Below, piece after piece: positions 50,437-60,861 of a stretch of 64,000 nt of DNA. Position 1 is the stretch's first letter; each line of letters begins with the position of its first letter. Under the pieces are notes generated by a model, which made no database searches, had not been told where the DNA came from, and saw nothing but the letters and a program-made list of their open reading frames with translations. The translations under genes and the position numbers were made by a program. This DNA is from Bacillus sp. EAC (lineage in GTDB: Bacteria > Bacillota > Bacilli > Bacillales > Bacillaceae_G), in NCBI RefSeq assembly GCF_002156875.1, contig NZ_NCSY01000002.1:186001-250000 (forward strand), in the 5' to 3' direction.

Positions 50437-51714
50437 TCAAGTATTCAACTCAGCAGTTCGATTTGGTTTGACTTCTGATTCACCTTTAACTCGTCTTTCT
50501 AATGCAGGTGTAATCCGGACGAAGATAATAATACCAATTACTCCTAAGCTTGTTAAAAAGAAAGATGTCGCAAATTTTGAAAGAAACGCACTTAGTGCAA
50601 CCGTTATTGAACAAATAAACATTGCCAAATTAAACGTTAAACCAGCAACAGCCATATAAGAACTTCTTGTTTCTTCTGAAGGTAGATGGGCCATATAGTT
50701 TTGTTGAACTGGAACACGAAGAACTTCTGCAACTGTTGCTACAAACATCGCTATAAATAATAATAATATGGAATTACTATAAGAAATTACGGCATATCCT
50801 CCTACGAATGCTACACAACTCCAAATGAGTGTAAGTTGATCATTCATATTCTTGACAATCTTTGTCGCAAATAGCGCCATTACAACTACTAGAATTGTAT
50901 TTTCCGTTCTTAGGAAACCTGTCATTTCGATCCCACCGAATGACCAATTCAGTAGATGTTGGGTTTGGAAATCATTCGTTAATCGAATACCAATGTAATT
51001 TGATAACTGAAATTCCATTGAAAGGACTAGTAAACCAGCAAGTACATATAGGATAAATAATTTATCTTGAAATACATCACGATAATTTGAAATCATTTTT
51101 TTCGCGTGAGAACTGATTGTTTTCATTTCTGATTGTTGTGTTATCAAACTTTCTTTAACGAAAAATGTAACTAAAACCCATGTAATGAACGAAGCAACTG
51201 AAAGAGCCAGTAACAGTTCGAACAAATACGATTTGAATAAAAATCCGCCAAACACTCCACCAATTGCAATTGATAAATTGTTCGACCAATACATGATGGA
51301 ATACATCAGTTTTCGTTCTTCAGGTTTACTCACATCAATCAGCATAGCTTGATTCGCAGGACCGGCCAATCCCCAACAAATACTATTAACTGTCATCATT
51401 AAAAATGTGATAAGTGGTGATGAAAACCATGGTGAATTACAGAACATCATCGTTATAAACGCTAATAACCGTAATGTTTCCGCAAACACCATTGTCTTTT
51501 TTCGACCGAATTGATCTGAAAAATACCCACCAAAAAAGTTCATGATAATTCCAATAAAAACATTTACTAGCAATAGCAATCCAGCGTGTTTTACGCCAAA
51601 ATGCTTTGATAGATAAATAGCCATAAACGGAAAAATCATACTGCCAATTGCCGAACTTAGAAAAGATTCGAGTAGTCGGATTTTAATATTTCTGTGAAAT
51701 TTAAGTAGATTCAT
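50437..51714 (-). CDS. MFS transporter (DHA1-type drug exporter-like)
   Basis: This 425-residue major facilitator has twelve hydrophobic segments and the loop motif GGYFSDQFGRKKTMVFAETLR between helices 2 and 3. It resembles exporters of the DHA1 group, but the substrate is unknown. AGAGGTT precedes the ATG. No regulator is adjacent; a dispersed repeat separates it from a second leftward MFS gene. Confidence 0.85.
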   Translation of the reverse strand: MNLLKFHRNIKIRLLESFLSSAIGSMIFPFMAIYLSKHFGVKHAGLLLLVNVFIGIIMNFFGGYFSDQFGRKKTMVFAETLRLLAFITMMFCNSPWFSSPLITFLMMTVNSICWGLAGPANQAMLIDVSKPEERKLMYSIMYWSNNLSIAIGGVFGGFLFKSYLFELLLALSVASFITWVLVTFFVKESLITQQSEMKTISSHAKKMISNYRDVFQDKLFILYVLAGLLVLSMEFQLSNYIGIRLTNDFQTQHLLNWSFGGIEMTGFLRTENTILVVVMALFATKIVKNMNDQLTLIWSCVAFVGGYAVISYSNSILLLFIAMFVATVAEVLRVPVQQNYMAHLPSEETRSSYMAVAGLTFNLAMFICSITVALSAFLSKFATSFFLTSLGVIGIIIFVRITPALERRVKGESEVKPNRTAELNT

Positions 51715-51870
51715 TGTTTTTTAACCTCTCGTTTTTCCAATAATTTCATCGATATAACAATCCTATAACACTTATCGTTCATAAACAACACACTTGTTTG
51801 TTAATTCATATTATTCAATCTCTTTTTTCACATAAAAAGAGAGTTGCATACCAACCCTTACCTTTTCACT

Positions 51871-52179
51871 CCTTTTACATAGCTGTTTTCGTAAACCATG
51901 TTGCTATTAAAAAAGAATTTCGTAGATTTCCACTCCAGAATGCTCGCTTTCCGTGAGGTGGGCGATGAGCCTTGAGCCCACACGATGTGGGTCATGCATG
52001 CGTTACGACAGGACGTCGTGGTATTAGCATACCTACCTTTTTGACCACTGCTAAGGTCTCAACTGTCCCGCTAATCCGATAGGAGTCTCGCATATCCGTT
52101 CATCATCTTCTGTATTTACAGTTTGCTTTAAAACCCCTTTTAATAAAAACAATCTTCTAGAAAACAGCCTTTTACATAG
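51871..52179 (+). mobile_element. MITE-like repeat element with 12-bp flanking direct repeat
   Basis: The element (51883-52167, 285 bp) has inverted ends CTGTTTTC (51883-51890) and GAAAACAG (52160-52167). The 12 bases CCTTTTACATAG occur exactly on both sides (51871-51882 and 52168-52179), the second overlapping the stop codon of the leftward MFS gene. This looks like a target-site duplication. The interior shares the family core (GATTTCCACTCCAGAATGC ... TAGGAGTCTCGCAT), a central hairpin (GAGCCCACA...TGTGGGTC) and the variant segment also seen at 25420. It encodes no transposase, so it would be moved in trans. Confidence 0.8.
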
Positions 52180-53383
52180 AGAATGATGTTTCATCTTTTA
52201 TACTAAGTTTTTTATACACTTTTAAATAAACCCATAATGCATTTAAAAATAACAATGCACTTGTAATAAGAAATACATATCTTATACCTAAATAGGCGCC
52301 TACTTGTCCACCTAAGATTGAACCTACAAATACCCCTAAATATCCTGCGGACATGTTAAAACCAAAAACTCTACCGGTCAGTGAATCAGGTGTAATTCTC
52401 TTAACCAATGTATTAACAGAAGGATTTAAACCTGCTGTCGCTAACCCTAATAAAAATCGGAAAAACATTAATTCCCAAGCATTTTTGACAAAAGCTTGTG
52501 GAATAATCATTAATCCTGCCAATACAAGTGCCCCTAAAATCACTTTCTGTGGCCCAATTCTATCAGAAAGCTTTCCTAGTCTTGGCGCAGCAATTATATT
52601 TGCTAATCCCGAAGCTGAAAATGCCATACCTGCTAATAAAGCAACATGACTTGAATGACTTGATATCTGCATAATATAGACAGTAATCACTGGTTCAATC
52701 GAATACAATGCAAGAGTTAATACAAAAAAGGTCACAAACATTGTAATCGTTAAACTTTTGTCCGGAATAATTCTCCATATTTCTTTCATTCTAAGTACTT
52801 TTTTATCCTGACGCGTAAAAGATTCCTTTACAAACAATGCGGTAGTAATGAATGCAATTAATAATAAAGCTCCAGTTATATAAAATACATTTTCTAAACC
52901 AAGCGTCTCTCCAATATAAGCACCGATCATTGGTCCAAGTAATGAACCCCCGACGCTTGCTGTAGAAAGCGTACCTAAAGCCCAACCTGCGTGTTCTTTA
53001 TCCGTTTGAGTAGCGATTAATGTAGTACAAGCCGTACTATAGCCTGTAATGATTCCCTGCAATAACCTTAAACCAATCAGTACATATACATTTTGAGCAA
53101 AGCCCATACTAAATACAACTATCGCCATTCCAAGACTTGCTCGCAAAAGCATTGGTTTACGACCAAATTTGTCTGCTGCTAAACCCCAAATAGGTGAAAA
53201 TATGGCAGAAATAACAAATGTAGCACCAAATGCAATCCCTGAAAATTGATCGATTAATGCTACATTATGAACCCCGAGGTTTTTAATGTATAAAGGTAAA
53301 ACTGGGCCAAGTTGACTCATCCCTATACTCGTTACAAACATCCCGAACCAACAAACGATTAAATTTCTTCTCCACATGCTCAT
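52172..53383 (-). CDS. MFS multidrug exporter (DHA1 family)
   Basis: This 403-residue major facilitator with twelve segments has the motif A loop GLAADKFGRKPMLLRASLGMA and the antiporter motif C-like TASVGGSLLGPMIGAYIG in helix 5. These are features of drug:proton antiporters. It is divergent from a tetR gene with an operator in the intergenic region, the classical layout of a regulated drug pump. GAGGG precedes the ATG. The repeat element lies at its very 3' end. Confidence 0.88.
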   Translation of the reverse strand: MSMWRRNLIVCWFGMFVTSIGMSQLGPVLPLYIKNLGVHNVALIDQFSGIAFGATFVISAIFSPIWGLAADKFGRKPMLLRASLGMAIVVFSMGFAQNVYVLIGLRLLQGIITGYSTACTTLIATQTDKEHAGWALGTLSTASVGGSLLGPMIGAYIGETLGLENVFYITGALLLIAFITTALFVKESFTRQDKKVLRMKEIWRIIPDKSLTITMFVTFFVLTLALYSIEPVITVYIMQISSHSSHVALLAGMAFSASGLANIIAAPRLGKLSDRIGPQKVILGALVLAGLMIIPQAFVKNAWELMFFRFLLGLATAGLNPSVNTLVKRITPDSLTGRVFGFNMSAGYLGVFVGSILGGQVGAYLGIRYVFLITSALLFLNALWVYLKVYKKLSIKDETSFSM

Positions 53384-53551
53384 AATAACCCTCTCCCTTT
53401 TTTGTAAAACTAAGGAATTCCACTATAATAGACCTCTTTAATTAGAGACGTAATGAAAATATCACCCGATAAATCAGTTTAGTAGTAATTAAAAATACGC
53501 ATTTAACATCCGACACCTTTTAAGATAAACTTAAACTATAAATTAAAGTTT

Positions 53552-53574
53552 GTAAACTATATATTATAGTTTAC
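53552..53574. promoter_or_regulatory. TetR-family operator
   Basis: A perfect inverted repeat, GTAAACTATA (53552-53561) and TATAGTTTAC (53565-53574), with three bases between, lies between the divergent MFS and tetR genes. Partial copies of the half-site (TTAAACTATAAATT at 53531; GTTAAACTA near 53592) flank it. It would let the repressor control both directions. Confidence 0.78.
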
Positions 53575-53633
53575 GTACAATACATTATAATGTTAAACTA
53601 ATTTTATAAAGTAATATGATAAGGAGTAATAGA

Positions 53634-54197
53634 ATGGTGCAAAAACGAAATTTGACTAAGGAAAAGATTATTGAGGCTGCTTTTTTATTGGCAGATGAAA
53701 TCGGTCTTAATCAAGTTACTTTCCAAAAAATTGCAGAAAAATTACAGATAAAATATCCATCACTATATAATCATTTCACTAATATGGATGACCTTAAAAT
53801 AAAAATGACTATCTACCTTTTGAATAAATTGAATTCGAATTTAATGCAAAAATTAGTCGGTAAAAGTGGTGAGAATGCAATAAAAGAGTATGCCTATGTT
53901 TATCGTGACTTTGCATTCAAAAACAAGACGGGGTATGGATTATTTATGAATATTCCAAGCACGCAAGATGAGGAAGTTAGACGTTTAGCGAAAGAAACTA
54001 TGGGTATTATTCATCAAATCTTAGATTTTTATATTAAGGATGAAACGCAATTAATTCATAAAGGAAGAGCTCTAAGGAGTCTACTACATGGATTTGTCTC
54101 CATGAATTTCCTTGGTTATTTCCAACATCCTGTAAATGTAGAAGACAGCTTTCAATCGATGATCGATGATTTTATTTTATCCGTTTCGAGAAATTAG
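53634..54197 (+). CDS. TetR/AcrR family transcriptional regulator
   Basis: This ~187-residue repressor has the TetR helix-turn-helix in residues ~8-55: LTKEKIIEAAFLLADEIGLNQVTFQKIAEKLQIKYPSLYNHFTN. The C-terminal domain resembles the WHG/TetR_C_33-type region with HKGRALRSLLHGFVSMN. ATG 53634 has AAGGAG seven bases upstream; the ATG at 53616 lies before that site. Divergent from the MFS pump and probably its repressor. Confidence 0.88.
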   Translation: MVQKRNLTKEKIIEAAFLLADEIGLNQVTFQKIAEKLQIKYPSLYNHFTNMDDLKIKMTIYLLNKLNSNLMQKLVGKSGENAIKEYAYVYRDFAFKNKTGYGLFMNIPSTQDEEVRRLAKETMGIIHQILDFYIKDETQLIHKGRALRSLLHGFVSMNFLGYFQHPVNVEDSFQSMIDDFILSVSRN

Positions 54198-54236: not shown

Positions 54237-54276
54237 GGGAGGTGTGGTAAAGCATTTTAGCTTTACCATAAAAATG
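54237..54276 (+). promoter_or_regulatory. Shine-Dalgarno separated from the ATG by a perfect hairpin
   Basis: A near-ideal ribosome binding site, GGGAGGTG (54237-54244), is 29 bases before the ATG at 54274. Between them GGTAAAGC (54246-54253), loop ATTTTA, GCTTTACC (54260-54267) form an 8-bp stem. Folding the hairpin would bring the site to ~7 bases from the ATG. The in-frame GTG at 54244 lies inside the ribosome binding site and would be too close. Confidence 0.6.
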
Positions 54277-55014
54277 AAAATAGCTAAAGGTATAGAAACG
54301 ATCGAATTAGTTATGAAGTTAACTGGGCCAGAAAGTATCATCCATCCGACTTTGATTTGGGATGAAAATGAAACTATTTTAGTGGACACTGGAATACCTG
54401 GTCAAAATGGAGAAATTAACGAAGCAATCGAAAAAGCTGACGTACCAAATAACAAGCTGACAAAAATTATTCTTACACACCAAGACTTTGACCATATTGG
54501 AAGTCTCTCTGAAATTCTAAAAACTTCTGACCATAAAATTGAAGTCTTAGCACATGAAGTAGAAAAACCCTATATCGAAGGTGACAAGCCATTAATTAAA
54601 ATGAATGCAGAACGAGTAGCAAAAATGACGGAATCTCTTCCAGAGGAACAACGCCAGAAAATAAAAGCTATATTTGAAATACCATTAAGCGCTAATGTAG
54701 ATAAAACAATTAGCGATGAAGAGTTATTACCTTACTGTGGAGGAATCACTGTTATCTATACACCTGGACACACTCCTGGTCACGTTAGTTTGTATCATCA
54801 CCAGAGTAAGACATTAATTGCTGGAGATGCACTTGTAGCAGATAATGGGATCTTAATGGGTCCTAGACCGGCTGTGACACCTGATATGGAGACTGCGCTT
54901 CAATCTATTAAGAAATTTACAAAATATGATATTGAACAAGTGATTTGTTACCACGGTGGATTGGTTAAAGAAAATGTGAACCTACAAATTTCTGAATTGG
55001 CTAATTCTAATTAA
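54274..55014 (+). CDS. MBL-fold hydrolase
   Basis: This ~246-residue metallo-beta-lactamase-fold protein begins KIAKGIETIELVMKL, the usual family start. It has the metal motif LTHQDFDHIGSL (H-x-x-x-D-H variant: THQDFDH), a second site in YTPGHTPGHVSLYH, and the distal histidine in VICYHGG. ATG 54274 is chosen on family length; the in-frame GTG at 54244 would add ten residues encoded by a hairpin. It follows tetR by about 75 bases and may be in its regulon. Confidence 0.82.
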   Translation: MKIAKGIETIELVMKLTGPESIIHPTLIWDENETILVDTGIPGQNGEINEAIEKADVPNNKLTKIILTHQDFDHIGSLSEILKTSDHKIEVLAHEVEKPYIEGDKPLIKMNAERVAKMTESLPEEQRQKIKAIFEIPLSANVDKTISDEELLPYCGGITVIYTPGHTPGHVSLYHHQSKTLIAGDALVADNGILMGPRPAVTPDMETALQSIKKFTKYDIEQVICYHGGLVKENVNLQISELANSN

Positions 55015-55117: not shown

Positions 55118-58100
55118 TTAATTATTTCGCTCGAGACACTCATAAACTGCCATCATATCTCGTTTATTCAATTCACGAATTCGGTTGAAGATTGGAATAT
55201 CTGCAACAGCTTCAGTCAGTAGGCTTTCAGAAACAACATCACTTACTTTGCCAGTTAGCCATGTATGTACGTCTATACCTTCAACGATTTCCTTACGCCC
55301 CTCGTCATTAATACCACTTGCATAACAACTTACACAAGGGATTGATAATTTATATACGCCATCATGGAGATTATCTTCTGAAATGACTTTCTTCCCTTTA
55401 CAGAATGGACAAGGATTACTTGCTTTGATTTTATTAATTAACGTAACAATTTTTTTGTAACCAAACGCTTCATATACGTAAGTTAGTTTTTTGTATTTTC
55501 CATTCGTAAAATATTTATCTATAATGGTTTCTCTTGTTTCAGAAATATTGGCGAAATCACAGATTGAAATTAGGTTTTTGCTACTTATCGTTTCAATATT
55601 GCCTTTAATACTATCCCAAAAAGGTAGAACATTTTGTAAAACTACTTCATAGCCAACAAAGCTAGCTTGTTCTATTTCATACATTTTCAGGGCAACCTGA
55701 GTCTCCCTCGGAAGTAAAGAGACATCTTCTGCAAGTGAAAGATCGCCACCAACAATTGATTTTAGTTTTTCTAGTTCTGGTAAGTTCCCTACTGCTTTGA
55801 TGACCTGATCAATCGGCTGATTAATAACCTCCCGAATATCTGTTTCTCCAAATTTTAGTTTTTTATGATGGTTAAGCACTGTTCCATGACAAACAGGACA
55901 AGTGATCATCTCTTTTGACGTTTTCATATTCTCTTTTATAGGTGATTTTGAAATAGACATATAACGTCCAATGACGATATTAAATCCTTCCCAGATTCTC
56001 GAAGCTTTACCTGCTTTATCATAAAATGACTTTTCCCAATAACCATATAAAAACGTATTCTTTTCAGCTTCTGTCATATCATTGTAGCTCTTACTGATAT
56101 CGTGACCGAGTTCGTTCTTTATTTCATCAAATAGGAATTGTAGTTTAGGATATTGATAATATTTTAATACCTCCATCACGTCTGGATGCAGTAATCCATC
56201 CCAAAATGGAACTGTTTTATCTTGAATTACTACGTCTATATCAAATTTTTCAATGACTCGACGACCGGAACAACATGGACAATGATTTTCTTGATAATAG
56301 AAATCAAAACTTCTTGTATCTTTATTGGTCGGATGGGCTGCCACTATATGATTGATCAATCCACCAGTTTCATAAAGAAAACTAAATTGACTATACAAGT
56401 GTCTTTCAAGGTCAATGGCAATGACCGGAGCAATTGTTTCGGAGTCATACTCACCATAAATTACACGAGCAATTGGTGATAAGCTTTTTAAAATACCACC
56501 TTTATAGACATTTTCAGCATTTTTAAAATATGCAATATGATCAACTTTTAAGTAGTTAATTCCATTTCGTGACCTTAGTGTTGAAGAAATTTGTAATGGT
56601 GTTACGTTATCTGAATGATCTTTTTGTCGATAATAATCATCATGACTAACAACATCAAGATGTTGAACAGGCTGCGCTCGTCTTTTTCCAAAATCAACAA
56701 TAAAATCAGAGCTCTCTAGCATATAAGCATTATGCTCAATCATCAAGATTGAGACCGATTCATCTTGTAGAATAACTCTAACACTATCTATAAATTGATT
56801 TAAAATATTTTGAGATAACCCTTTTGATGGTTCGTCAAAAATAAAAAGTGTATGTGGGTTTCTAGTGTTGGCAAATAGTTCTGAAACTAAATGAACACAT
56901 TGAAACTCACCAGTCGATAATGTTTTCGTTTTTCTTTCCAAAGTTAAATAACCAAGGCCAAGTTTAATCAACAAGCTAAGGCGTTTATAGGCTATGTCTT
57001 CACTTGGCAGATCATCAATAATATCTTCAATCGAGCGCTGAAAAATATCATCAATGTCATCACTATATTTAGTGAGTTTCTTTTTAATATCGAGAAATGT
57101 CGCAACAGTTGAAAGACTTGTAATCGATTGGTTTCGATCTTGTCCAACCATAACTAGCTTATCTTTTGGATAGCGCTTCACGAAATCTTTCGCCATGCAT
57201 TCATTAACCAATGTCGATTTACCACAGCCAGACTCACCAGTAAAGGTTACAAGTCTATTTTTTGGAATCTGAATGTCAGAAATGTGAATATTACGGCAGA
57301 AAAGATCATGAAATTGATAATAGTCTACTGGAGTTTCCTGGTTTCGTTCCCAGCTAATTGGTTTTGGACGTGGAGATTCTTCCACTATTTTTCCGCCATA
57401 TTTTCCACTACCTGGTCCGAAAAACACTTGCTCATCAGTTATATTGAGCACTGTATCAGAATGGTCAATGAGCCAAATTTGGTTTTTATAACCTAATTGT
57501 TTAATCTGATCTAAAATTCTTAATAGCGTTTCATGATCTAGGCCAACCGAAATTTCATCAATAATAATAACGGTATTCTCACTTGTTGCCATAAATTCCG
57601 CTAAATAAAGTCGAGTTAATTCCCCGCCTGATAAAGTTCCCATAATTCGATTTAACGATAGATAACCTATATTCATATTAATAATATTTTTAAGTATATT
57701 TTGTTTCGCTTCACCAATATGTAAATCCTCTATAAGTGTATAAATGGATTCAATACTCAAGTTGTTAATATCGGAAATAGTATACGGTTTATCAAATAGA
57801 TCAATTGTATAGTGCAAAACTTCTTGATTATAGCGTTGTCCATTACATTTTGGACATTCGACGTTTTTTGTATAACCACGTCCTTTACAATCCGGACACC
57901 AGCCTAGTGGATTATTGAATGAAAAAACTTCTGGAGATAGATTAAATTTTTCAGCAAGACAATCACGAATCTCTTTAAAAACACCTGTATGCGTGCCAAT
58001 TGTTGATCGTGGATTTGAAGATATTGACGATTTTCCAAGAAAAAGGACTAAGGGCATTTCTTTCATTTTAATCGCACTAAAATTTGTTTCCATAATATTC

Positions 58101-58288
58101 GGAAAAAGATACTGATACTCAGCTTTAGGCAATAAAGAAACGAGGCGCTTCTTTGATTCTTCTCCGATTGTTTGGCAAAAAGTTGTTTTTCCGGATCCAG
58201 ACAAACCAGCAATCCCCAACGATTTATCTACTGGTAGTGTTGCATCTAATTTGCTAATATTGTTCGCAATTAGTTGATTTATTTTCAT
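55118..58288 (-). CDS. UvrA-like double ABC ATPase with zinc-finger C-terminal extension
   Basis: This ~1056-residue cytoplasmic protein is related to excinuclease subunit UvrA but reorganised (numbering from the upstream ATG at 58294). The first cassette has Walker A GLSGSGKTT (30-38), a zinc module C133/C136/C147/C150, signature LSGGE (221) and Walker B IIIDE. The second has Walker A GESGCGKST (353), LSTGE (459) and LFIFDEP, without a zinc finger. A further ~500 residues carry CPCC (672-675), CPVCHG (799-802) and a four-cysteine site (962, 965, 987, 990). The UvrB-binding domain of true UvrA seems missing. ATG 58288 fits GAGAGG at 8 bases. It may act on DNA or in drug resistance; function unknown. 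Confidence 0.8.
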   Translation of the reverse strand: MKINQLIANNISKLDATLPVDKSLGIAGLSGSGKTTFCQTIGEESKKRLVSLLPKAEYQYLFPNIMETNFSAIKMKEMPLVLFLGKSSISSNPRSTIGTHTGVFKEIRDCLAEKFNLSPEVFSFNNPLGWCPDCKGRGYTKNVECPKCNGQRYNQEVLHYTIDLFDKPYTISDINNLSIESIYTLIEDLHIGEAKQNILKNIINMNIGYLSLNRIMGTLSGGELTRLYLAEFMATSENTVIIIDEISVGLDHETLLRILDQIKQLGYKNQIWLIDHSDTVLNITDEQVFFGPGSGKYGGKIVEESPRPKPISWERNQETPVDYYQFHDLFCRNIHISDIQIPKNRLVTFTGESGCGKSTLVNECMAKDFVKRYPKDKLVMVGQDRNQSITSLSTVATFLDIKKKLTKYSDDIDDIFQRSIEDIIDDLPSEDIAYKRLSLLIKLGLGYLTLERKTKTLSTGEFQCVHLVSELFANTRNPHTLFIFDEPSKGLSQNILNQFIDSVRVILQDESVSILMIEHNAYMLESSDFIVDFGKRRAQPVQHLDVVSHDDYYRQKDHSDNVTPLQISSTLRSRNGINYLKVDHIAYFKNAENVYKGGILKSLSPIARVIYGEYDSETIAPVIAIDLERHLYSQFSFLYETGGLINHIVAAHPTNKDTRSFDFYYQENHCPCCSGRRVIEKFDIDVVIQDKTVPFWDGLLHPDVMEVLKYYQYPKLQFLFDEIKNELGHDISKSYNDMTEAEKNTFLYGYWEKSFYDKAGKASRIWEGFNIVIGRYMSISKSPIKENMKTSKEMITCPVCHGTVLNHHKKLKFGETDIREVINQPIDQVIKAVGNLPELEKLKSIVGGDLSLAEDVSLLPRETQVALKMYEIEQASFVGYEVVLQNVLPFWDSIKGNIETISSKNLISICDFANISETRETIIDKYFTNGKYKKLTYVYEAFGYKKIVTLINKIKASNPCPFCKGKKVISEDNLHDGVYKLSIPCVSCYASGINDEGRKEIVEGIDVHTWLTGKVSDVVSESLLTEAVADIPIFNRIRELNKRDMMAVYECLERNN

Positions 58289-58495
58289 AATCATTTCCTC
58301 TCAATTTCTACTTTTTCTATCTAGCATCATCATAGCAGAATTATTTCTTACAAAATTCAATGATATTGCCTAGTCTTTTGTATACTATGACCGTTTTACT
58401 GATATAAACATCATACCCATTTTTCCATTTATTGTTAACATCAAATATGACAGATACATGAAATCTAGCACATACTATTCGTGGAGGTGATAAAC

Positions 58496-59103: not shown

Positions 59104-60567
59104 TCATTCCCTTTTATTAACTTCATACGCTACTCGAACGCCGGACTCAATTGCTCCTTGAATCCAACCTGGCGTAGACGAAATGTGTGCCCCTGCAAAA
59201 TGGATTCTTCCTTCAGGAGTGCTCATGTAAGGACCCAATTCTTTTTGTTGATATGGTTTCGACATGACAAATGCTCCACCAGAAAAAGGATAGTCTGACC
59301 AGCTATGAGTACTTCCTACAATAAATTCTTCATATACTATTTTTCCAAATATATACGAAAGATTCTCTAGTGCTTTTTTTATTCGATCTTCTTCTGACAT
59401 ACTGTCCCAAATGAATGCATCAGATCCCCATGTATAGCTAGCTAAAACGACTCCAGTGCTATTAGAGCCTAACTCATGACTAGGAAAATATGAAAATTTT
59501 ATCGGTAAATCAGTTGTTATCTTACCTCCGTATAGACCCATCTTTTCCCAAAATCTTGTTTTGAATTGAAGTCCAATTTTTGTCGAGTCTGCATAGTGCA
59601 TCTCTCTAATTGCTTTCCATTTATTATAAGATATAGACTCATATGGGAAGAGCTGCACGAAGTCCAATAAAGAAAAAGGAATGGTCACAATAACTAAGTC
59701 AGAAGTGACTTGGTGTTTAGTAAAATTTTTCTTATCATCAGTAAAGACTGATACACCAGTATTTTCTTGTACGATTCTGGTCAGTTGTTGATTAAAATAA
59801 AGATTGTCACTTAGTTGATTTAAAAATGAATTCGGCAACTGATCGTTTCCACCAGTAATTTCGTAAAGTTTAAGGTCTTCTTCAAGAAGTATCATAACTT
59901 CTCTTAATACTGACGTAAAAGCAAGTTCAAGAAACCCTTCTATTCCAACTATAGCCTCAATCATATCGACTGCTCCTATAGATAATGATAACCCGACAGG
60001 ATTATCCTTCAAAAAATTCTCCATTGAATATTGATCGTACTTATTAATCACAATTTCCCAATTTTTTTGAGGGTCTTGTTTAACAAATTTAAGAACAGGA
60101 TCCACTGCTAGTTTTAATAGTTCTTCCGCTGTTTTACCTCCCTCAATAGGAGCTAATGGAAATCTTAATAAATGGGGGTTACTTTCATAATATTTCTCTC
60201 GTGTTAAAACATTATTTACATAGATTGGATCATTAGGAGTACTATTAATAAACTCATTAACAGGTAGATTAAATTTGTTTATATATTCGAATGTAAGTCG
60301 GTGAACTGAAGGTATTCGCATTGCTCCCAATTCGACATACTGGTTATTTATAAATGGTTGCCTTTTAGTATATACACGACCACCGAGTCTATCATTTATC
60401 TCTAAAATCGTTACTTCATGTCCTGCCTCTTTTAATAAAGATGCAGCAACTAAACCTGACATTCCAGCGCCCACAATCGTAACTTTCTTTGATTTGTTTG
60501 TTTTTTCTAATCCACTTCGAATGAAAGATACTATTTGTTCCATTGTAAGATTTAATTTATTATTCAT
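59104..60567 (-). CDS. Flavin monoamine oxidase family protein
   Basis: This ~487-residue FAD enzyme has the dinucleotide-binding start VTIVGAGMSGLVAASLLKEAGHEVTILEINDRLGGRVYT and the GG-motif. It continues with YVELGAMRIPSVHRLTFEY, and ends GRIHFAGAHISSTPGWIQGAIESGVRVAYEV, the C-terminal FAD motif. This layout fits monoamine oxidases and L-amino acid oxidases. The substrate is probably an amine or an aromatic amino acid. ATG 60567 has GGAAGAG upstream. A single-gene unit. Confidence 0.85.
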   Translation of the reverse strand: MNNKLNLTMEQIVSFIRSGLEKTNKSKKVTIVGAGMSGLVAASLLKEAGHEVTILEINDRLGGRVYTKRQPFINNQYVELGAMRIPSVHRLTFEYINKFNLPVNEFINSTPNDPIYVNNVLTREKYYESNPHLLRFPLAPIEGGKTAEELLKLAVDPVLKFVKQDPQKNWEIVINKYDQYSMENFLKDNPVGLSLSIGAVDMIEAIVGIEGFLELAFTSVLREVMILLEEDLKLYEITGGNDQLPNSFLNQLSDNLYFNQQLTRIVQENTGVSVFTDDKKNFTKHQVTSDLVIVTIPFSLLDFVQLFPYESISYNKWKAIREMHYADSTKIGLQFKTRFWEKMGLYGGKITTDLPIKFSYFPSHELGSNSTGVVLASYTWGSDAFIWDSMSEEDRIKKALENLSYIFGKIVYEEFIVGSTHSWSDYPFSGGAFVMSKPYQQKELGPYMSTPEGRIHFAGAHISSTPGWIQGAIESGVRVAYEVNKRE

Positions 60568-60861
60568 AGAAATCAACTCTTCCACGGATTTTAGGATACC
60601 CTATAAATTTATTCGAAATTATATATGTTTAGAATTAATACATATTGAATCAATGTAATTTTGAAATGCTTCGTTTCATTAACAAGCATGAAATATTCCC
60701 CATTCTTGTCCTATATTCTATTAGTATGAGAATTAATTGATAGAGTTCAGGCTTATGTTTAAGAGGCTGTTTAATATTAGAGGAAAAATGTAGAAGAAAT
60801 AGAATACAGTAATGGTAATATATAAACCTAATTTTAAGTGGACAACAAAGGAGATCTAATT

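Follow-up and report, generated by a model that had tools for sequence, protein, structure and literature searches.

According to passages of PMC7835731, UvrA contacts DNA through its insertion domain and its Zn3 hairpin. The class II UvrA proteins (Deinococcus UvrA2, Ecm16, and DrrC), as presented in passages of PMC10192343, lack the UvrB-binding domain and Zn1, retain the insertion domain and Zn3 in place, and consist of single units of 756-874 residues (Table 1 of that source); Ecm16 is reported there to protect E. coli with and without UvrB, and its insertion domain to be required for DNA binding and resistance. Passages of PMC10413001 cover uvrA-like genes of actinobacteria only. Here we describe a gene of Bacillus sp. 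EAC, found in a 64,000-nucleotide stretch (contig NZ_NCSY01000002.1, positions 186,001 to 250,000; hereafter the window), that encodes a UvrA-like protein of 1056 residues. Like UvrA (TIGR00630, PRK00349), the protein possesses two ATP-binding cassette (ABC) units, a zinc module, and a homologous Zn2-insertion domain. Unlike UvrA, it lacks the UvrB-binding domain and Zn1, and its insertion domain, along with a possible Zn3-like module, lies in a C-terminal second unit rather than inside nucleotide-binding domains (NBD) I or II. The best reading, to which we give an even chance, is that two UvrA-type units are fused head to tail and have undergone complementary loss. We regard the family as a variant of the UvrA family; a literature search, with most subscription papers outside its coverage, found no tandem, fused, or permuted UvrA.

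Results

Architecture of the protein

The gene and its parts are as follows, with residues numbered from the MKINQ start.

55118..58288 (stop included), minus strand: whole gene, putative tandem UvrA-like protein of 1056 residues (open reading frame (ORF) and translation; NF001503 match)
57359..58288, minus strand: ABC cassette A, residues 1-310 (GLSGSGKT, LSGGE, DE, H276; hhalign, trees, invariant motifs)
57833..57925, minus strand: compact zinc module C131/C134/C145/C148, residues 122-152 (cysteines invariant in 40 members)
56654..57331, minus strand: ABC cassette B, residues 320-545 (GESGCGKS, LSTGE, DE, H519; hhalign to UvrA NBD2)
56399..56500, minus strand: possible NBD-I remnant, residues 597-630 (LKSLSPIARVIYGEYDS..APVIAIDLE), no P-loop (hhalign, weak)
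55769..56317, minus strand: Zn2 module split by a UvrA insertion domain (C670/C673 ... C797/C800), residues 658-840 (hhalign, hmmsearch)
55499..55726, minus strand: predicted dead ABC core, residues 855-930 (AlphaFold2 secondary structure and structural alignment)
55235..55417, minus strand: possible Zn3-like module (C960/C963/C985/C988), residues 958-1018 (hhalign and structural alignment)

The protein scored below the curated thresholds of both UvrA families examined, reaching 300.6 bits where NCBIfam NF001503 requires 1147 and 264.9 bits where TIGR00630 requires 729.8. An ordinary UvrA of 952 residues is encoded elsewhere in the host assembly (C21:165871-168726), which comprises 4.33 Mb in 28 contigs. 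PRK00635, a double-length UvrA model of 1809 positions, matched the protein with 148 bits; we take this model to be chlamydial and, judging by its length, another tandem UvrA. The shorter length of the present protein relative to PRK00635 is ascribed to the apparent erosion of its second unit.

Cassette A is a UvrA nucleotide-binding domain lacking both the UvrB-binding domain and the insertion domain. In a profile-profile comparison of 92 family members with 47 ordinary UvrA proteins (hhalign), its best match was to UvrA 616-914 (NBD2; E 1.1e-32), and its zinc module was accompanied by FSFNNPLGWC and RYN; only ten residues separate the two CxxC pairs, so there is no insertion domain at that site. 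Cassette B (residues 330-536) matched UvrA 616-903 with an E value of 7.1e-26 over 204 aligned columns only. It has no CxxC pair, and a separate profile alignment, made from the uncleaned sequence set, skipped the Zn3 module. The ATPase motif residues of both cassettes (Walker A, signature, Walker B DE, and H-loop His) are invariant among 40 aligned members, apart from T459 of LSTGE and C355, each at least 90% conserved. The Walker A pattern occurs at positions 28 and 351 only, and none of the 92 members has it beyond cassette B. The UvrB-binding domain is absent from both halves: the gap from IRD to FSFN spans about a dozen residues in cassette A and about ten at the corresponding place in the C-terminal half.

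The last ∼500 residues contain four CxxC pairs, at 670, 797 (CPVCHGTVLNHHKKL), 960, and 985, that could form two zinc modules. Residues 658-840 aligned with UvrA 262-448, a stretch comprising the first Zn2 pair, the insertion domain, the second Zn2 pair, and the part that follows, with an E value of 8.5e-16 that was equaled in none of 200 column shuffles. The same region retrieved UvrA from the PDB sequences (hmmsearch E 1e-7) and, in an even draw of genomes by phylum, matched UvrA-sized ORFs of 952-984 residues in 11 of the 14 genomes with matches (best E 1e-14); its four Zn2 cysteines showed no variation in an alignment of 84 members with 39 UvrA fragments. These sequence comparisons confirm that residues 658-840 are homologous to the Zn2 module and insertion domain of UvrA, displaced from their usual place.

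A reading made from the DNA sequence alone (hereafter, the sequence-only reading) had anticipated much of this architecture. It gave the correct coordinates for this minus-strand gene and described the zinc module with FSFNNPLGWC and RYN in the first cassette, where the cysteines were numbered C133/C136/C147/C150 from an earlier ATG two codons upstream, at 58294, that yields 1058 residues. The absence of a zinc module in the second cassette, the resemblance of the C-terminal half to the insertion of the first UvrA cassette, the additional cysteine sites without a Walker A motif in that half, and the missing UvrB-binding domain all agree with the present results.

All parts of the gene are under purifying selection, with ratios of nonsynonymous to synonymous divergence (dN/dS) of 0.037-0.094 (three gene parts, eight comparisons). 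These low values, along with full-length members in many genera, indicate that the arrangement is more than a chance observation. Between pairs (L009 versus L013), the N- and C-terminal portions differed in opposite directions in their synonymous divergence, a hint of intragenic recombination.

Origin of the C-terminal half

The elements that contact DNA are gone from the N-terminal unit and present in the C-terminal unit, firmly for the insertion domain and tentatively for Zn3, and the ATPase residues show the reverse distribution; this pattern is what points to complementary loss in two UvrA-type units. Evidence from the flanks of the insertion domain is of a more suggestive kind. Residues 600-627 weakly matched the stretch that directly follows Walker A in UvrA, 54-87 (E 0.011, equaled by 2 of 200 column shuffles), and residues 958-1018 matched Zn3 at UvrA 734-791 (E 0.006). 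An AlphaFold2 model of the C-terminal half (predicted local distance difference test (pLDDT) of 78) followed the UvrA order from the UvrA N-terminus to ∼846 by structural alignment, and 18 of the first 25 alignment rows kept this order, with both flanks included, over 323-448 residues. Within the predicted dead core, LPRET was assigned by eye to LSGGE, YEVVLQN to Walker B, and ISICDF to the H-loop. A dead second UvrA core and a Zn3-like module are thus suggested by the model.

Several observations weigh against a fusion of two units. Residues 840-935 gave no sequence signal to UvrA (131 of 200 shuffles equal) and none to NBD-I alone. The match of residues 958-1018 to Zn3 (UvrA 734-792) was only second best and equaled the highest shuffle; when the cysteines were held fixed, 17 of 300 shuffles were as good, which is not significant, and the top match of this last segment was the second Zn2 pair, UvrA 392-412 (0 of 200 shuffles equal). 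In 7 of the first 25 structural rows, model residues 1-361 fit NBD-II instead, over 212-236 residues; the long alignments had root-mean-square deviations of 7.5-15.2 angstrom, and the model stretches for residues 556-574 and 592-619 had pLDDT values below 50. The input alignment of the model contained 39 UvrA insertion-domain fragments, which may have drawn the rest of the model toward UvrA. Cassette A retains its own zinc module, so the division between the units is not perfectly clean. Finally, no partner gene is shared by the majority of loci, and a Pfam tally covering 86 of 157 nearest neighbors revealed no common partner family. A full-length AlphaFold model built from 40 members was poor (mean pLDDT 57) and was left out of the matching.

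The strongest alternative, though an unlikely one, is that a UvrA-like double cassette acquired only the Zn2-insertion-domain module and that the remaining C-terminal sequence is lineage-specific, with no relation to UvrA; such a protein would work in much the same manner, yet would contain no second UvrA. The confinement of firm sequence homology to residues 658-840, with none in 840-935, is as this alternative predicts. It accounts less well for the 18 structural rows that include both flanks and for the weak matches on either side of 658-840, which also occur in UvrA order. The sequence-only reading had proposed aligning the two halves separately with UvrA; that comparison recovered the insertion domain and a C-terminal model in UvrA order, with sequence support firm only for residues 658-840.

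It is improbable that the protein is instead a relative of the UvrA2, Ecm16, and DrrC type, i.e., an accessory UvrA directed against DNA-binding antibiotics and carrying an extra C-terminal domain. The absence of the UvrB-binding domain and Zn1, as described for Ecm16 and UvrA2 in passages of PMC10192343, the intact ATPase motifs, and a patchy, apparently transferred distribution are all compatible with such a relationship. In the proteins described in those passages, however, the insertion domain remains in NBD-I and Zn3 in NBD-II, whereas the cassettes of this family have neither.

Residues 960-1003 (55280-55411) also weakly matched Lar-type restriction-alleviation zinc ribbons (Pfam E 6e-4; PHROG 599), a similarity that probably arises through the CPFC motif.

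Correspondence of the cassettes to UvrA domains

The sequence-only reading likened the first cassette to the second of UvrA and considered the parts permuted and partly duplicated. A circular permutation, in which cassette A would be NBD2, cassette B NBD1, and the C-terminus the rest of NBD1, now appears quite improbable. By profile comparison, cassette A does match NBD2 best, and the approximately unbiased (AU) test accepted A with NBD2 (p 0.54; 0.98 log units better) as well as A with B (p 0.39). Such a best match is expected after loss of the insertion domain, however, because NBD2 is the UvrA half without one, and cassette B also matches NBD2 best. Unconstrained trees argued for the opposite pairing: a core tree of 25 UvrA proteins and 8 members placed B and NBD2 together (support 94), separate from both A and NBD1, and a smaller tree under a richer model grouped A with NBD1 (support 95/94). 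Mean identities were 0.350 to NBD1 and 0.301 to NBD2 for cassette A, and 0.312 and 0.310, respectively, for cassette B. Among columns that discriminate NBD1 from NBD2, a count partly marred by misalignment, A was tied at 6 to 6 and B favored NBD2 by 8 to 5. The cassettes' own trees and identities thus mildly favor the canonical order. Taken alone, the cassettes neither show nor exclude permutation; the C-terminal half appears to keep UvrA's own order, which suggests that the duplication should be retained from the earlier proposal and the permutation set aside.

An anti-phage defense ATPase of the MADS type is very improbable, given that the PADLOC mad3 match (E 3.6e-31) is far surpassed by that of the cell's ordinary UvrA (E 2e-114), indicating general UvrA similarity, and that the C-terminal half alone had no PADLOC match at E 0.001.

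Distribution and history of the family

A search of genome contigs yielded 160 relatives among the pattern matches, of which the best 80 were kept. Genomes were also drawn evenly, with the source genome included. Full-length members occurred in 27 of 397 genomes at the level of the order, where 2 remnants were found in addition; in 11 of 398 at the level of the class, where 1 further genome had a remnant alone and 4 had partial matches to UvrA-sized ORFs; and in 3 of 398 at the level of the phylum, where the remaining 11 matches were partial. Scores in these draws were ∼960-1050 bits for members, 52-148 for remnants, and at most 55 for UvrA-sized ORFs, with no intermediates. The family is patchily distributed across Bacillales. 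Ordinary UvrA was found in all 32 carrier genomes tested, of 37 with a full-length member.

Across 30 genomes, identity within the family ranged from 72 to 99% over ∼990 residues and was moderately correlated with that of UvrA (r 0.63, Mantel p 0.001). The family proteins were more alike than the UvrA proteins in 262 of 435 genome pairs. Six congeners of the source share 95% identity in UvrA and only 79.5-85.5% in the family protein; in eleven genomes the values were 72-78% for UvrA and 76-86% for the family protein. Placing Paenibacillaceae on the family tree requires at least five label changes along branches with good support, and label changes alone do not prove transfer. Poor congruence with UvrA and patchiness together fit repeated transfer, and we read these sequence comparisons as an accessory gene that spread in this way. 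The gene also undergoes loss, as judged from C-terminal remnants at three loci (L139, L140, and L153, in genomes G711, G555, and G1040, respectively). The copies in G711 and G555 contain in-frame stop codons, and no full copy was found in either genome; G1040 also carries a full one.

No relatives were present among 169 pattern stretches of viral contigs, and none of 44 matching phage records matched over more than 80% of the query. Of 763 matching plasmids, one exceeded that coverage, a Niallia taxi megaplasmid. A vanY-type gene (PLSDB prediction; L189:8774-9649) lies ∼0.6 kb from the family gene on this megaplasmid.

Genomic neighborhood

In the window the family gene stands alone, flanked by two genes that are outside the system.

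54244..55014, plus strand: convergent neighbor, metallo-beta-lactamase-fold hydrolase (absent beside congeners' family gene)
59104..60585, minus strand: upstream neighbor, flavin amine oxidase (absent beside congeners' family gene)

In a synteny comparison of 13 genomes of the genus, no listed match to the amine oxidase or the hydrolase adjoined a congener's family gene. The source genome carries 7 matches to the flavin amine oxidase at E ≤1e-120, one of them at 59104-60585, and each of its 12 congeners carries 1-6. A pair of MFS transporters is encoded near the gene together with a TetR regulator (window 50437-54197).

At 20 of 80 loci the closest upstream neighbors, in the same orientation as the family gene, were an ArsR-type regulator and an AHSA1/SRPBCC gene (Pfam names taken from cluster representatives), with AHSA1 at 23, and the outer flanks varied among the ArsR-AHSA1 loci. 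At four further loci (L041, L044, L048, and L055) the next genes downstream were of the ArsR type and of a different AHSA1 kind. Elsewhere the family gene was adjoined by AHSA1, VOC, DUF4256, DinB-like, or DNA alkylation repair genes; one of the last (PF08713; L085:7221-7928, Niallia taxi) is located 39 bases upstream on the same strand, and its cluster occurred within 8 kb at 4 of 80 loci (L085, L035, L041, and L044, with Pfam checked for L085 only). The neighbor tally, from which most members of already named clusters were left out, gave MarR in 5 of 86 and MFS in 3 of 86. None of 80 upstream stretches, each at most 400 bases long and taken from the window plus 79 of the 80 named loci, contained the LexA box GAAC-N4-GTTC, and thus there is no sign of SOS control through that motif. 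The ArsR-AHSA1 neighborhood is circumstantial evidence for a response to small-molecule stress rather than SOS. A literature search on AHSA1/YndB with flavonoids found nothing usable.

Discussion

Under the fusion of two UvrA-type units, tandem duplication would have come first, followed by complementary loss in the two copies. The N-terminal unit (1-550) would have kept two complete ABC cassettes and lost the UvrB-binding domain, insertion domain, and Zn3, and the C-terminal unit (∼560-1056) would have lost the P-loop, the ABC signature, the residues of Walker B and the H-loop, and the greater part of the second nucleotide-binding domain, retaining the UvrA modules that touch DNA, i.e., Zn2 with the insertion domain and then the Zn3-like module. 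A single chain would correspond to a UvrA dimer with divided labor, in which ATP binding and hydrolysis by the N-terminal unit move the C-terminal unit on and off DNA. We infer that the protein may recognize the distortion that bulky or intercalating chemicals cause in DNA, and remove or displace these chemicals. The lack of a UvrB-binding domain in both units makes ordinary excision repair unlikely, as the sequence-only reading had supposed; UvrB could not be recruited through the known domain, so that action without UvrB is most likely, as reported for Ecm16. Drug self-resistance, as in DrrC, is plausible by analogy, and the job of the protein is probably tolerance of DNA-binding xenobiotics. 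The full proposal, somewhat short of an even chance in our estimation, is that of an asymmetric, UvrB-independent, single-chain UvrA dimer, horizontally shared among soil Bacillales, in which, after tandem duplication, the first copy became purely an ATP motor and the second, its ATPase dead, a reader of DNA, so that the whole strips genotoxic ligands from DNA.

The coupling of ATP turnover to DNA reading in UvrA is hard to study, as both functions reside in every protomer of the dimer. If the proposal is true, motor and reader are naturally separate within one chain and could be tested apart, and a class that has been studied mainly in antibiotic producers would gain a UvrA relative that is widely shared and independent of UvrB.
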